The notes under the pieces were generated by a model. The model was not told where the DNA came from. It saw only the letters and a list, made by a program, of their open reading frames with translations, and made no database searches. A DNA stretch of 64,000 nt from the NCBI RefSeq assembly GCF_000787575.1, contig NW_012236495.1, positions 62,001 to 126,000 of the forward strand, written 5' to 3'. Each line of letters starts with the position of its first letter. Position 1 is the stretch's first letter. The position numbers were made by a program, and so were the translations under genes. Positions 25,486-56,075 of the stretch are shown in pieces. The stretch is from Acytostelium subglobosum LB1. Lineage: Eukaryota; Evosea; Eumycetozoa; Acytosteliales; Acytosteliaceae.

Positions 25486-26121
25486 ATGCATAAGAGGACA
25501 CCTTCACAGCCATCACCCTCATCTCCTTCATCATTGTTGAGTGGTGGTCCTTCATCATCATTTACAATGAATAGGTTGGCACCAAATAACAACAACAACA
25601 ACGCAGCTAAGCTCACACCAAACTCATCATCGATAACAATGGCCACTGTTATACAACAATATCAACAACTGCAGTTACAACAACAACAACTTCAACTACA
25701 ACAACAACAACTATTACAACAACAACCACAGATGATCAATCAAAGACATCATCAAGTATCAACAACATCTGCATCGTCCACTGCTACTACACCGGTGGTA
25801 TCACAGCAGACCACTACAGCAGCATCTGCATCGACACCACCCGCAAGAAAGAAGTACAAACCATTGCAACGATACAACAATGCCAATAATGATGAAACAG
25901 TGTTCTATGGCTGGTTCGTGATACTCTGCACATTGGTCTTCTTCCTATTCTCCACATACTGTCTGGTCATCTCCAAACTGCTGCCAGACACTGGTAATCG
26001 CATTCTCGACTTTATCAAATACGACTGGTACTACTGTCTACTACTGCCCGTCATCATCCCTGTCACCATCATCACTGTATATCTCAACTGGCTCAGTCTA
26101 AAGTTCTTCCGTCACAACTGA
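25486..26121 (+). CDS. pigY: PIG-Y-like GPI-GlcNAc transferase subunit with Q-rich extension
   Basis: Single exon, 211 residues. The last ~72 residues match PIG-Y, the small subunit of the ER complex that starts GPI anchor synthesis (GlcNAc to phosphatidylinositol): two membrane spans, FYGWFVILCTLVFFLFSTYC and YCLLLPVIIPVTIITVYLNW, and the C-terminus LSLKFFRHN, which is nearly identical to the human end (MGIKLFRHN); human also has YSLLLPITIPVY. Residues 1-~130 are Ser/Pro then Gln-rich low complexity and absent from the 71-residue human protein. Internal Met codons (MATVIQQ..., residue ~47) could be the true start; I kept the first ATG because the frame is open and dictyostelids often carry such extensions. 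Confidence 0.8.
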   Translation: MHKRTPSQPSPSSPSSLLSGGPSSSFTMNRLAPNNNNNNAAKLTPNSSSITMATVIQQYQQLQLQQQQLQLQQQQLLQQQPQMINQRHHQVSTTSASSTATTPVVSQQTTTAASASTPPARKKYKPLQRYNNANNDETVFYGWFVILCTLVFFLFSTYCLVISKLLPDTGNRILDFIKYDWYYCLLLPVIIPVTIITVYLNWLSLKFFRHN

Positions 26122-26899
26122 GTTTAGTTTGAATGATTCATTCAGGGTGGTCTCTCACTCATTCCCTTCATTCATTCAACAACTTCATCGATCGAGATGA
26201 ACTGGATCCCATCCTTCATCATCTGTTGCCAACAACTGATGACATTCCTTAGACTGTCAGTCGATCAGTCAGTCAGCTGATGACTGACCATGCAGCTGTC
26301 CGGTGGAGATTGAATATGTTAGTCGTTGCCAGATGATTGATTGATCGAGTGCTAAGGGACTTACCAAAAAGCGCAGACAAAGCTCCACTAACTCGCAGAC
26401 TTCCTCAATCTTGAGGACACAATAAAAGTGAAAAAAAATCAATGATTTTGGTGAATGGTCCAAAGAAAAGCAAATACTTGGTCTCCCACGTGTCTCTTCT
26501 CAATTCATTCAACAATAACAACAACATAATATATATTAATCTAACAATCTATCTATCTCTTTATCTCTTACTTACTACTATTACTATTACTACACCTCTT
26601 ACTCATTCTCACTTTGAGCCACTAACCACAAACAGTTACACACATTCCATTCATTCACACGTACACTCATTCACTCAATTCACTCATTCATTACATTCTT
26701 CATTCTACTCAAAGGAACAAACAAGCAAATAGACTTGACACTAACTGAATAAGTTATTGTTGTTATTATTGTTGTTGTGTATCACATATATATATCTAAA
26801 GATTCATAGAATCATCAATTAATATAGATCGATCAAATACATACAGTTCAGAACAGTACAGAATAGAATAGGATAGGACCGTAAACAAATTAATTACAA
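26122..26899. other. Intergenic region containing a transposed 79-bp segment
   Basis: About 780 bp between PIG-Y and VPS28. Apart from the 79-bp paxillin-derived copy (26304-26382, separate entry) it holds AT-rich and ttactacta/attcattcac low-complexity DNA, a short poly-A run (~26433) and an AT-rich leader before the VPS28 start. No coding potential. Confidence 0.5.
26304..26382 (-). repeat. 79-bp exact copy of paxillin exon/intron boundary
   Basis: Identical over all 79 bases, and in the same orientation, to 54552-54630. In the paxillin gene that stretch is the last 18 bp of the large exon (coding V-C-A-F on the minus strand), the GT donor and most of the last intron. Here it sits outside any gene, about 180 bp past the PIG-Y stop. 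Because it keeps unspliced intron sequence it is DNA-derived (or pre-mRNA-derived), not a copy of mature mRNA. It could also be an assembly artefact. Confidence 0.9.
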
Positions 26900-28090
26900 A
26901 TGTACAATCCACCAGTTCGACAACATTACGCTCCTCAGACATTCCAGCCATCTCCTCCTCCAGGCCAACCAGGAATGAAGCCATATCCACAACAGCAGCA
27001 ACAGCAGCAGCAATCACCACAGCAACAGAACTTTAATGAACCACCTCCTCCAGTATGTTATCAAACACCTATGACAGATAGACGAGCAGGCAGACAGACT
27101 CTAACACATAACTACATACATAGTACTATCATAATCCACCTGGATATGCTGATAACAAACAGGTTAAACCACTACCACCAACTCCAATGTATGGACTACG
27201 TCTTCGCGATGCTTGGTGATCATCAACGACACAAACTAACATTCAATCAATCAATAATATAGGGGACCACCTGGCCAACACTCGAATGGTGTACCAAATA
27301 TGAATGGCCTTCCAAGTGGACTAGCGTTCAGCTTGAAGGAGGTGAAACTATGTAACAATACCAAGGACAGAGAGACATACGACAATCTGGCAGAGCTCTA
27401 TTCGATTATCAAAGTGACAGAACACTTGGAGAAGGCATACATTAGGGACAGTGTGCTGCCCAAGGACTACACCACCGCCTGCTCCAAATTGATCGCTCAG
27501 TTCAAGTCCTCACAGACACTCGTCAAGGACTCTGTACCAAACGTCACTACATTCATGAGAGATTACAACCTAGACTGCAAGGCTGCATGTATGTGTACTA
27601 TCATCATCACGCATGTGTCACTTTCTAACACTCCTCTCTCTTGCCTCGTATAATCAGACGATAGATTGGTGAACAAAGGTTACCCATCAACATTGGAGCA
27701 TAATGTTACAACAGACTCTAACGACTCTATGATGGCCAAGTATGTTCTCATTCAATCAATCAATCATTGCATCAACATCATACTAACTACTACATGCATC
27801 ATCTTAGGAATGTGGCAGAGACAGTACAACACTTTATCACAACAATGGATTCGGTTCGATTGAAGTTTGTAGCAGTAGACAACATACATCCATTGCTGAG
27901 CGACCTGCTTGAGAGTTTGAACAGGAACACTTGGTTGTCAAACTTTGAGGGCAAGGAGAAGATCATGAACTGGATGGCCACACTGAACAAGATGAAGGCC
28001 AGCGAAGAGTTGGACGAGGATCAAACGCGACAATTGCTCTTTGATCTCGACAGCTCCTACAATGCATTCTATAAAGCAATCAAGAGCTAG
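26900..28090 (+). CDS. vps28: ESCRT-I subunit VPS28
   Basis: Five exons (26900-27052, 27163-27188, 27263-27588, 27658-27739, 27808-28090), 289 residues. VPS28 pairs with VPS23/TSG101 in ESCRT-I for sorting of ubiquitinated cargo into multivesicular endosomes. After a Pro/Gln-rich N-terminal extension (~70 residues) the core starts with VKLCNNTKDRETYDNLAELY, then EKAYIRDSVLPKDYTTACSK and VPNVTTFMRDYNLDC. The C-terminal four-helix domain has VRLKFVAVDNIHPLLSDLLE and ends LLFDLDSSYNAFYKAIKS. A 26-bp exon is needed to keep phase (P-P-T-P-M-G-P-P-G). Core length matches the family; the N-terminal extension is the dictyostelid addition. Confidence 0.93.
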
Positions 28091-29662: not shown

Positions 29663-30758
29663 ATGGAGGAACAATTGATTGATAAGTCATACTTCACATC
29701 GTTGTATAAACAGATTAGACTACAGGAGTTCTTGGAAGTGGCTCATACGATTTTGTTGGACCGGCTGGAGAATGGCTATGGAAGGACGGTAAAGGGCGTG
29801 CCACTCGGTTGTTTACCGGTCGAGTTGTTCCGCGATCACTTCTCATCGTTCAGGTCATGGCGTAGCTACACCAAGGACCGTGTCACATATATCAATGGCG
29901 AGAAGGTCAATGTACAGCATCTCTACTTCACATTCAACGCACGCTCTGGCTATCCAACACTGTCCACTGGCAAGGATTGGACAAAGAAGAGGATCGAGAA
30001 GAAAGAGGGCAGCGTTGGCCCCGTCGTCCAGGCCTACCAAAAGGTGACATTCATTATCAGCTATCGTGATACTCGTGTCGAATGCGACTTTAAGATGGCC
30101 ACTCTGGGTCCAGAGACAACATCAAATTCACCAGCAACGCAACAACAACCACTGTCAACAAGTATGCCACAATTAGATCAACAACAANCAGCAACAGCAA
30201 CTACAACTTCAATATCAACAGAATATACCAAATACACAACTACAACTGCAACAACAACAATATCAACCTCAGCCTCAACCTCAACTTCAACAACAAGATA
30301 CAATCCAAATGCATCAACAACAGATAATGATGCAGCAGCAACAACAACATCACCAATCACCAATTCTTCAACAACAACAACAATTCGTCATTCCACAACA
30401 TCACCTACCAATGCACGATACGACTACTTCGACTCTGGACACTACAACAACAACATCATCATTGGCAGCAGCAACAACAACAACACATCTACTTCAACGA
30501 CCGGATGGATTTTCCTCATTGCCATTGATCGACAATAGCACCAGCAATAACAACAGTGGCAGCTCTCCATCACCCTCCTCTCATTCACCATCAGTGCACA
30601 CTCCGCCTCCAGTGCACCATGCATCGTCAGCATCAACACAACAAGAAGGTACTCCACCACTCTATGCATCCACCTATCCCACCATACTGGCGACTCACAG
30701 CGGCAGCAGCAGTAGTGGCAACAATAGTCAAACACAAGTTAAGTTTGAGGCCATATAG
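29663..30758 (+). CDS. Q-rich protein with unknown conserved N-terminal domain
   Basis: One exon if the N at 30188 is taken as a spurious base: the frame before it (from MEEQLIDKSYF) and the frame after it (Q-rich, ending QTQVKFEAI) differ by one, and dropping the N gives a continuous 364-residue protein. Residues 1-150 form a globular domain with YFTSLYKQIRLQEFLEVAHT, VPLGCLPVELFRDHFSSFRS, NVQHLYFTFNARSGYPTLST and QKVTFIISYRDTRVECDFKM. I do not recognise it. The remainder is Gln-, Thr- and Ser-rich, as in dictyostelid transcription factors and RNA-binding proteins. The N lies in a CAA/CAG tract, where base-calling slips are common. Confidence 0.7.
30188..30188. other. Single ambiguous base (N) in a CAA repeat
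   Basis: Lone N inside caacaaNcagcaacag. It coincides exactly with a one-base frame change in the host gene, so it is most likely an extra position introduced by consensus calling. Confidence 0.85.
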
Positions 30759-32310: not shown

Positions 32311-33962
32311 ATGGCATCCTCTGATCAAAGACTTAATGATTTGTTGGCTCAATTGCCTACGATCGCCAATAACATGTACTCTGAAGATGAGAAGGTTGTG
32401 TTTGAGGCTGTCAAGAATGTTAGAGTTATGTTATCCTTCGAATCGGCGCCACCCATCCAACAGATCATCGAGGCTGGTCTAGTACCAAGGATGATACAGT
32501 TGGTTCAGTTTGGTGGAACTGAGTGTCAAGTATGTATATATACTCACGCTCCTATCTCTCATCTTAAGTCTTTTACATTCTAACATCCAAACTCCCTCTC
32601 CTCCCTCCAATCCATAGTATGAAGCAGGTTGGGCTTTAACAAATGTAAGTTATAACAATCTTAAGAAGGACAACAGAGACTAACCAACAGCAACTTGTTA
32701 TCATTCATTTAGATCGCTTCTGGCAATCCTCAACAAACATTGGTCCTTGTACAGAGTGGCGCAATTCCAATGTATGTAGCCATTAGCCATTAGCCATTGA
32801 TTCATGAATGATATTGACCACATACTAATAACATTCGTACAGCTTTGTAGAGATGCTCAACTCACCAATCAAGAAGGTTGCTGAGCAGGTACTTTGGTGT
32901 CTTGGAAATATAGCAGGTGATTCGATTGACCTGCGCAACCTTGTGTTGAACAACTTTGCAATTGAAAACATCATCAAGCTCATGCACAGGAACATCCAAG
33001 ATGTGTCCCTGCTACGCAATGTCGCATGGACCTTTTCAAACTTCTGTCGTGGCAAGCCACATCCATCTAAACAACATGTAAGTAGTATCCTCAGTCGACC
33101 CAATCATACTCATAAGTATACTTACCACCTCACTCAATAGGTCGACCTTTTCCTTCCATATCTTGCCAAGTTCTTGGACGCCACTGACCAAGACATATTG
33201 GTGGACACAATTTGGTCATTCGCCTTCATCACAGACACCACATCAGATTGGTTGATCAATGCCGTGATTGAACTCAATGTGATACCCAGGATCATGAAAT
33301 ACTTGGGAACCAACGAGTCGGTCAAACTGCTGGTGCCATCACTGCGATCAGTGGGCAACATCCTCTCTGGGAACGACGTTCAGACACAATATATCCTCAA
33401 CCATGGCGTCATTGAAAGGTTCAATGAGCTGGTCACTCATCCCAAGGCCAACATTCGCAAGGAGGTCGTGTGGTCCGTGTCCAACATCACATCTGGCACC
33501 AGACCACAGATCCAAGCCATCGTCGACTCTGGCATCTTGAAGGAGCTGACAACCAGAGTGATCGCCAAAAGGGAGCAACAAGATTTGTTGAAGGAGATCA
33601 TGTGGGCACTGGTCAATGCCTCAACAGGAGGCTCAATCACCCAGCTCGAGTACCTTGTCAACATCAACACCATTCAGAGTCTGATGGTCGTGCTCCGAGA
33701 GCAGTACGCCAGCATGTACTCTTTGGTATTGGAAGGCTGCGCCAACCTTCTCAATCAAGATACCAACCTGCCCCAATGCAACATTGTTCGCACCTTTATC
33801 GACGAAGACTTTAGAAGTGTGGTACAACAGATACAGACAGAGCAGCCTGAGGAGATAGAGAAGTTTGTTCAGATGCTCAACAACCAAGACATCATGCTCA
33901 AATTTTGGTCATCTGATGATCCCTTGATCGAGGGTCTCAACCAAATGAACATTGACCAGTGA
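32311..33962 (+). CDS. Importin-alpha-like ARM-repeat protein lacking the IBB domain
   Basis: Five exons (32311-32529, 32618-32644, 32713-32771, 32843-33077, 33141-33962), 453 residues. ARM repeats with the NLS-binding W/N pairs are clear: YEAGWALTNIASGNPQQTLV, LWCLGNIAGDS, RNVAWTFSNFCRGKPHP, VDTIWSFAFITDT, VPSLRSVGNILSGND, KEVVWSVSNITSGTRPQIQA, KEIMWALVNASTGG. The C-terminus contains the acidic-poor EKFVQMLNNQ segment rather than the usual acidic tail. The normal N-terminal importin-beta-binding domain (about 60 basic residues) is missing: only 26 residues precede the first helix and only 227 bp separate the ATG from the preceding gene, with no basic ORF there. It may bind cargo without importin-beta, or serve another role. 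Confidence 0.88.
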
Positions 33963-54451: not shown

Positions 54452-56075
54452 TTATTCGAATAATTTAGAGTGGCACACCTTGCAGTATGGCTTGCCATTG
54501 TTAGCTGTGTAGGATCCACCTGCCAATGGGTTCATACTATGATTGGTTGGTTGGAGATTGAATATGTTAGTCGTTGCCAGATGATTGATTGATCGAGTGC
54601 TAAGGGACTTACCAAAAAGCGCAGACAAAGTGCTCTGGATGCCACTTCTTGTCGAGGGCATCGATGCAACGGCCGCTGACAGCCTTGCCACAGCCAGAGC
54701 AGACGGAACCGGCCTGCTGGTGGTAGTGAATGTCACAGTAGGGCTTGCCTCCAAACTCAAAGAAGGTGCCGTTGGCAAAGCTCTTCTGGCAGTACTGGCA
54801 GACAAAGTGCTCTGGATGCCATTGGGTGCCGAGGGCGTTGATGCACTCGCCACGGATTGGCTGGNNNNNNNNNNNNNNNNNNNNNNNNNNNNNNNNNNNN
54901 NNNNNNNNNNNNNNNNNNNNNNNNNNNNNNNNNNNNNNNNNNNNNNNNNNNNNNNNNNNNNNNNGGGTGGCAAAGGTTGAGTAGTAGTCGGTCTCACAGT
55001 AGGGACGTCCGTCGCGCTCAAAGAAGTTGCCGTCCTCAAAGGGCTTCAGGCACTGTGTGCAGACAAAGTGGTGGATGTGCCACTTCTTGCCCAGGGCGGT
55101 GATGCAGCGGTCGGTGATGGCGTCATCACAGTGGGCGCAGCGGGAGCAGAACAGCTCGTGGTAGCACTTCTCGCAGTGGGGGAAGTTCTCTTGCTCGTAG
55201 AAGTTCTTGGTGCCGATTGGGTTGTGGCAGTTGTGGCAGACAAAGTGCTCGGGATGGTACAGCTTGCCCATGGCCTGGATGGTCTCGCCCAGGATTGGCT
55301 TACGGCAGTGGCCACAGGTACCTCTTGGTGTTGGGCCAGTGGTGTCAATGTCGTTCATCTGCGAGGTGAGGTTGGTGAGCAGGTTGTCCAAGTCGTCGCC
55401 GGCAACAACCTTGCCAGCTGGCTTGGCGGCAGCCCTTGGGGCGGCGGCAGCCTGCTGGTGGTGGTGCTGTGGCTGGTGTTGATGATGCTGATGCTGGTGC
55501 TGGTGCTGGTGAGCTGGAGCAGCCTGCTTGTAGTCGACCACTGGCTGCTGTGGGTTCAAGTTCTTCAAGAGCTCGTCCAAGTCGTCGGTGCTGTGCGAGG
55601 CTGATGAGTGGATGGGTGCGGGAGCACTCCTCTGTGCTGGGGCTGTGGTTTCCAAGACGGCTCTGGACACCTGGGGCTTCTTCACGACGACTGAGGCCGT
55701 CGAGGTGTATGTCTTGACGGGTGCAGCGTGCAATGGCGCTGGCTTGGCCGAGGATGAGTATGTCTTTTGGGACGCAGGCTCGTTGGTCTTGACGGCGGTG
55801 TGGATGGACGTGTTGAGCGACTCCATCAGAGCGTCCAAGTCGTCGGATGATTCAAACGCCTGCTGCGAGGTCGAGTTGTTGTTGTTGTGGTGGTTGTGAT
55901 GTGTTGGCTCCTGTCTGCCGGTGGTCTGAAGATCAGACATCAACGACTCTATCTCATTCAAGTTAACCTTTGAAGAGTTGTGATTATTATGTCCATTGGA
56001 TGCAGCTGGAGCTGGCTTTGCCACTCCACTCTTGGGACTTCCCAAATCAGCGAGTAAAAGGTCCAAATCGTCCAT
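54452..56075 (-). CDS. paxB: Paxillin homologue (LD motifs plus four LIM domains)
   Basis: Two exons (complement of 54452-54536, 54613-56075), about 490-515 residues depending on the gap. LD motifs: MDDLDLLLADLG at the very start, LNEIESLMSDLQ, SDDLDALMESLN, TDDLDELLKNLN, GDDLDNLLTNLT. Four LIM domains follow: CGHCRKPILGETIQAMGKLY..., CAHCDDAITDRCITALGKKW..., a third (broken by 100 N) resuming QPIRGECINALGTQWHPEHF, and CSGCGKAVSGRCIDALDKKW with its end after the intron (CAFCMNPLAGG...KVCHSKLFE). Paxillin is a focal adhesion scaffold needed for cell-substrate adhesion and cell sorting. Between YYSTFAT and QPIRGE the LIM pattern needs only about 6-8 residues. Confidence 0.95.
54552..54630 (-). 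repeat. 79-bp segment duplicated at 26304-26382 (source copy)
   Basis: Covers the end of the paxillin penultimate exon, the donor and ~60 bp of the last intron; identical to the copy near PIG-Y. Here it makes functional sense, so this is the parental copy. Confidence 0.9.
54865..54964. other. 100-N assembly gap inside a coding exon
   Basis: Exactly 100 N, the conventional placeholder length. It falls at the first zinc-knuckle of paxillin LIM3. Confidence 0.99.

Follow-up and report, generated by a model that had tools for sequence, protein, structure and literature searches.

Based on the sequence comparisons presented here, we describe in Acytostelium subglobosum LB1 a 79-bp segment in the 3' flank of the PIG-Y gene that is an exact copy of an exon/intron junction of a paxB-like gene on the same contig, at a distance of about 28 kb. 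This copy is probably a class-2 templated sequence insertion, left by break repair on a DNA template. A second, independent patch of gene sequence, copied from an importin-alpha gene of the same region onto another contig, indicates that the 79-bp copy is not the only event of this general kind in the genome. The window, i.e. the whole stretch of 64,000 nucleotides that was analysed, corresponds to positions 62001-126000 of contig C19 (209,746 bp, GC content 43.3%) in an assembly of 30,731,823 bases and 56 contigs; coordinates given without a contig name refer to the window.

Results

An exact and isolated 79-bp match

Positions 26304-26382 and 54552-54630 are identical at 79 of 79 bases and lie on the same strand, and the identity extends by 0 bp on either side. 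The preliminary description of this DNA had reported a base-for-base, co-oriented match about 28 kb apart and set between unrelated flanks, and both statements are exact: when the 40-base flanks were compared with 2,000 random pairs, 43% of the latter aligned as well as the left flanks and 79% as well as the right ones. A longer, diverged homology surrounding the match was thus rejected, the flanks aligning at the random level. Considering base composition alone, an exact 79-mer is expected by chance about 1e-32 times genome-wide, and a chance origin is excluded. A search of the whole 30.73-Mb assembly, which the preliminary description had proposed as a check, found the sequence at these two places only, both on C19. 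An ordinary dispersed repeat or transposon, which would be present in many copies, is not supported by this result and was rejected.

A list of 20 exact repeats on C19, each 28 bp or longer, places the match in its context. Three of them besides the 79-bp pair were examined, two of which lie inside longer paralogous similarity, while the third is an identical stretch of 57 bp flanking an N gap. A further entry of 53 bp is the continuation of one of the examined repeats, and the rest are close tandem or low-complexity repeats, as judged from their spacing and sequence. Among the long exact repeats listed, none other than the 79-bp pair is isolated. Elsewhere on this contig, C19:1854-2000 and C19:17405-17551 (pieces L003 and L004) share 147 bp with one mismatch inside a longer partial similarity, and represent a local duplication.

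The probable donor is a paxB-like gene

The source of the copy (54552-54630) belongs to a minus-strand gene with coding ends at 54452 and 56075, which harbors LIM domains (Pfam). Its designation as paxB-like follows these LIM matches and the name given in the preliminary description; the piece 54615-54863 has paxillin as its best match among solved structures. Read on the minus strand, the copied segment takes in the final 18 nt of a LIM exon (54613-54630) and goes on for 61 nt into the intron that follows. This intron, the last of the gene (54537-54612, minus strand, 76 nt, GTAAGT...CATAG), is supported by an in-frame splice (...HFVCAF-CMNPLAGGSY), and its removal keeps the frame open to the stop at 54452. 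Only 61 of the 76 intron nucleotides are present in the copy, the last 15 nt, including the acceptor, being absent. The anatomy proposed earlier, namely an exon end, a splice donor and most of the last intron, is therefore accurate. Because the segment runs on into the exon and the intron acceptor at paxB only and is an orphan at PIG-Y, we infer that copying proceeded from paxB to PIG-Y. The LIM-coding part of the paxB-like gene is interrupted by a 100-N gap (54865-54964), next to which a 24-bp sequence is repeated in different LIM domains (54621 and 54798).

The recipient site and its junctions

The neighbor of the copy is the PIG-Y gene (25486-26121, plus strand, 211 aa; Pfam PIG-Y PF15159, E 1.8e-18), whose reading frame is intact, with the insert outside it. 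The copy itself (26304-26382, plus strand; 26304-26364 intron-derived, 26365-26382 exon-derived) starts 182 bp beyond the PIG-Y stop at 26121, in agreement with its earlier placement just past this stop, and ends 38 bp ahead of an AATAAA motif (26421-26426, plus strand). This motif is the only one between 26122 and 26900 and is probably the PIG-Y poly-A signal; the VPS28 gene region begins at 26900.

Direct repeats of at least 4 bp were looked for at offsets of up to 11 bp from both junctions, but there were none, and no poly-A was seen in the insert and its flanks, so the preliminary description was right on the absence of both a target-site duplication and a poly-A tract. Microhomology is likewise lacking at the junctions, with zero adjoining bases common to donor and recipient beyond the match; gapped continuations of one or two bases, seen by eye, were judged to be chance. 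An inverted repeat with an 8-bp stem and a 5-base loop (26268-26288) is located 15 bp to the left of the insertion junction. A similar inverted repeat is found within 40 bp of 3.6% of 20,000 random C19 positions, and its presence here is only weakly suggestive of a break or stall site.

PIG-Y is read on the plus strand and paxB on the minus strand. To judge from this layout, any PIG-Y transcript extending as far as the AATAAA at 26421 would contain 79 nt perfectly antisense to the paxB pre-mRNA. One could thus imagine a functional element, either a regulatory site or a PIG-Y 3' UTR directed against paxB at its 5' splice site and intron, with selection keeping the two sequences identical. We regard this explanation as very improbable: the sequence occurs at two places only, and a low mutation rate explains the identity without selection.

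Age of the copy

With a D. discoideum mutation rate of 2.9e-11, which may not be that of A. subglobosum, 79 neutral sites may stay identical for about 1e8 generations, with a 95% upper bound of 6.5e8. For base substitutions in D. discoideum, one report gives 2.47e-11 per site and generation (PMC7466956), which likewise allows identity over some 1e8 generations. Since a Dictyostelium-like mutation rate is low, extreme recency is not required. The earlier conclusion that zero divergence implies a very recent or artefactual copy was too strong, an age of about 1e8 generations being compatible with the data at such a rate.

A sister event on another contig

Searching the genome with the whole window revealed a second patch, located on contig C42 (C42:229337-229539, i.e. 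L021:2837-3039; 203 bp) and derived from a stretch of an importin-alpha gene that contains intron sequence (32661-32869, plus strand). The assignment of the donor gene is based on the piece 33141-33959, which matches importin alpha. The larger part of the patch is 32661-32825 in inverted orientation, with 1 mismatch over 165 bp. It is followed by 32829-32869 in direct orientation, without mismatch over 41 bp, and the two pieces overlap by 3 bp at the switch point. It is unspliced, including importin-alpha intron sequence, and inspection of its sequence showed no poly-A. A 20-bp direct repeat flanks the patch, well above the 5 bp taken as the minimum for a target-site duplication. Among 1,490 random C19 pairs, none had a direct repeat of 20 and three had one of 16 to 19, although simple repeats can approach this length. 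At the right edge, donor and target agree at 10 of 11 bases, as do only 17 of 400,000 random pairs. The patch adjoins the ATG of an open frame, and the two ORFs found there have no Pfam match. A search with the 6 kb around the patch gave no further copy but the donor among the best 40 of 162 candidates.

In twin priming, which is known from LINE-type insertions, the 5' part is inverted and the 3' part is direct. The structure on C42 is expected from such twin-primed reverse transcription and equally from template switching during repair. Given that the sister event has a target-site duplication and the 79-bp copy has none, a shared mechanism is not required. The C42 event is arguably the more informative of the two.

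The sister patch also bears on whether the 79-bp copy was created by the assembly, in which paxB sequence could have entered the PIG-Y 3' flank by way of a chimeric read, a filled gap or an incorrect overlap. Several features of the contig are in line with such an origin: the zero divergence of the pair, the 100-N gap only 234 bp from the copied segment in the source gene, and the four single N bases on C19. In addition, a 100-N gap at C19:166787-166886 (within C19:166730-166943, piece L014) is bordered on either side by an identical 57-bp sequence, indicating overlapping contig ends that were left unmerged and, hence, that contig ends were not always merged in this assembly. However, there is no N near the copy, the closest on C19 being at window position 30188, and an internal insert requires two false joins 79 bp apart in gap-free sequence. 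The C42 patch hardly looks like an assembly error, because it combines an inversion with a single-base difference and a 20-bp direct repeat at its flanks, and this weakens a purely artefactual reading. An artefact is thus an unlikely explanation of the 79-bp copy.

Search for further patches

Genome searches, run at E cut-offs of 1e-5, 1e-10 and 1e-9, covered the whole 64-kb window and four of the 16 other pieces of C19 (L005, L006, L010 and L013; 40 kb), about 39 candidates being scored in each search except where few arose; the other 12 pieces were compared within C19 only, for exact repeats. The 104 kb queried yielded at least two isolated patches, both touching the window. This number is a lower bound, because each search scored few candidates and a repeat took up most of the list in one of them. 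The 40 kb of other C19 pieces gave no isolated patch; their matches were to paralogues, to low-complexity sequence and to a single dispersed repeat. The latter (C19:36705-37378, piece L006) is present in many copies, parts of which reach 97-98% identity, and accounted for most of the candidates obtained with L006.

Discussion

A probable patch of break-repair type

The 79-bp copy has several of the features that define class 2: it is templated from another unique locus, the donor is kept, and there is neither a target-site duplication nor a poly-A. The exact match, its restriction to two places, the unspliced donor continuing into a proper gene, the lack of homology at the junctions and the existence of an independent sister patch are the observations on which this assignment is built. 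Other origins were considered as well. The 61 nt of intron within the copy speak against a processed pseudogene, and the lack of a poly-A tract and of any target-site duplication reaching 5 bp speaks against a class-1 (LINE-mediated) insertion. tRNA-targeted retrotransposition was rejected, ARAGORN having predicted 0 tRNAs in the window, using the bacterial code setting, which may miss some eukaryotic tRNAs.

We propose that a double-strand break or a collapsed fork would have arisen in the PIG-Y 3' flank. The broken end may then have been extended on the paxB locus 28 kb away, or a short paxB DNA fragment may have been captured. Homology-free joining of the 79-bp patch to the other end would have completed the repair, with both neighboring genes still readable. 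Such a patch could be produced by end joining with a polymerase of the theta/nu type or by classical NHEJ capture, and no microhomology or filler base singles out one of these pathways. The genome contains three DNA_pol_A loci, and a conserved DNA_pol_A piece on contig C39 has polymerase nu and then polymerase theta as its best solved matches; polymerase theta joins a helicase to a polymerase part, and this comparison, which concerns the polymerase piece only, does not separate it from nu. D. discoideum is reported to possess NHEJ factors and PolQ (PMC8529158).

DNA or RNA as the template

The preliminary description had listed three causes: template-switch repair using a nearby locus, capture of pre-mRNA-derived DNA at a break, and an assembly chimera. 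Repair on another template is the best supported of these, and the other two are retained as lesser alternatives. The RNA-templated route deserves to be taken seriously, even though we consider it improbable. According to this scheme, a fragment of paxB pre-mRNA would have been reverse-transcribed, by a retrotransposon or another reverse transcriptase, and used at a break in an endonuclease-independent, class-2-like manner. Both donors are indeed genes that were copied with their splice sites, but a genic donor says little in a gene-dense genome. The genome also has RVT_1 ORFs, one of which has a weak endonuclease-like match (22.0 bits vs a cut-off of 24.5 bits). Moreover, experimental human patches are described as enriched for transcribed sequence and more than three-fold fewer with reverse transcriptase inhibitors (PMC5110952). 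The C42 event fits twin priming through its inversion, its 20-bp target-site duplication and the primer complementarity at its 3' edge; however, it is also unspliced and without poly-A, and its homeologous junction (10 of 11 bases) fits DNA template switching equally well. An ordinary retrocopy or another RNA route is disfavored for the 79-bp copy because it is unspliced and has neither a target-site duplication nor a poly-A. A DNA template is the more likely, and the unspliced sequence leans that way, although not decisively. In a separate locus of the genome (L029:172-2700, contig C49), a reverse transcriptase domain and a leishmanolysin (Peptidase_M8) match are found in one open frame, perhaps reflecting an element in or beside a protease gene.

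Comparison with known systems

Short templated insertions occur in plants and yeast. They have also been described in humans (PMC5110952) and worms (PMC4490562). In the description of human class-2 TSIPs, a patch from a distant locus is inserted without target-site duplication or poly-A, and experimental insertions in human cell lines measure 73-414 bp (PMC5110952). The 79-bp copy resembles them in being short, in having kept its donor and in falling within this size range. The same review, which defines class 2, argues that the experimental patches came largely from reverse-transcribed RNA (PMC5110952). In contrast to the human cases, the A. subglobosum copy is found in a compact, dictyostelid-like genome, and its donor lies on the same contig at a distance of only 28 kb. 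Class-2 insertions also vary in presence between individuals and bear NHEJ features at their junctions, such as a microdeletion, microhomology or added bases; the 79-bp copy, known from a single assembly, has zero microhomology.

A templated insert at a repaired break, as we infer for the 79-bp copy, is also reminiscent of polymerase theta-mediated end joining in Caenorhabditis elegans (PMC4490562), and a piece of a theta/nu-type polymerase is present in the A. subglobosum genome. However, the worm inserts are reported to match sequence close to the break, and simple junctions there have mostly single-base homology (PMC4490562), whereas the template of the 79-bp copy is 28 kb away and its homology is zero. 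Filler DNA and numts at plant and primate breaks, as these are generally described, share with our case the capture of an existing DNA fragment as a patch, but the donor of the 79-bp copy is nuclear and genic rather than mitochondrial, as it is for numts. The C42 event is closer to class-1 TSIPs and twin-primed LINE-type insertions, given its 20-bp direct repeat, its 5' inverted and 3' direct parts and the retention of its donor. It differs from class 1 in the absence of poly-A, in its unspliced template and in an 11-bp homeologous junction that fits template-switch repair equally.

A limited literature search found no report of such insertions in social amoebae or Dictyostelium. The phenomenon is known elsewhere, and the instance described here is new. 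At its own locus, the 79-bp copy is probably a neutral scar without function, and the consequence for PIG-Y is probably nil. It is conceivable, if rather doubtful, that the genome is seeded at an appreciable rate by short unspliced patches of its own genes through at least two routes, one being homology-free capture and the other, which duplicates the target, being template switching or twin priming, and that some of these patches, the 79-bp copy among them, give the 3' UTR of one gene a stretch perfectly antisense to the splice site of another. A density of two per 104 kb, if typical, would correspond to hundreds of patches genome-wide. Should this density prove general, the copying of gene pieces by break repair would be cleanly recorded in a small genome that has a theta/nu-type polymerase, and new splice sites or antisense stretches could arise from such copies.
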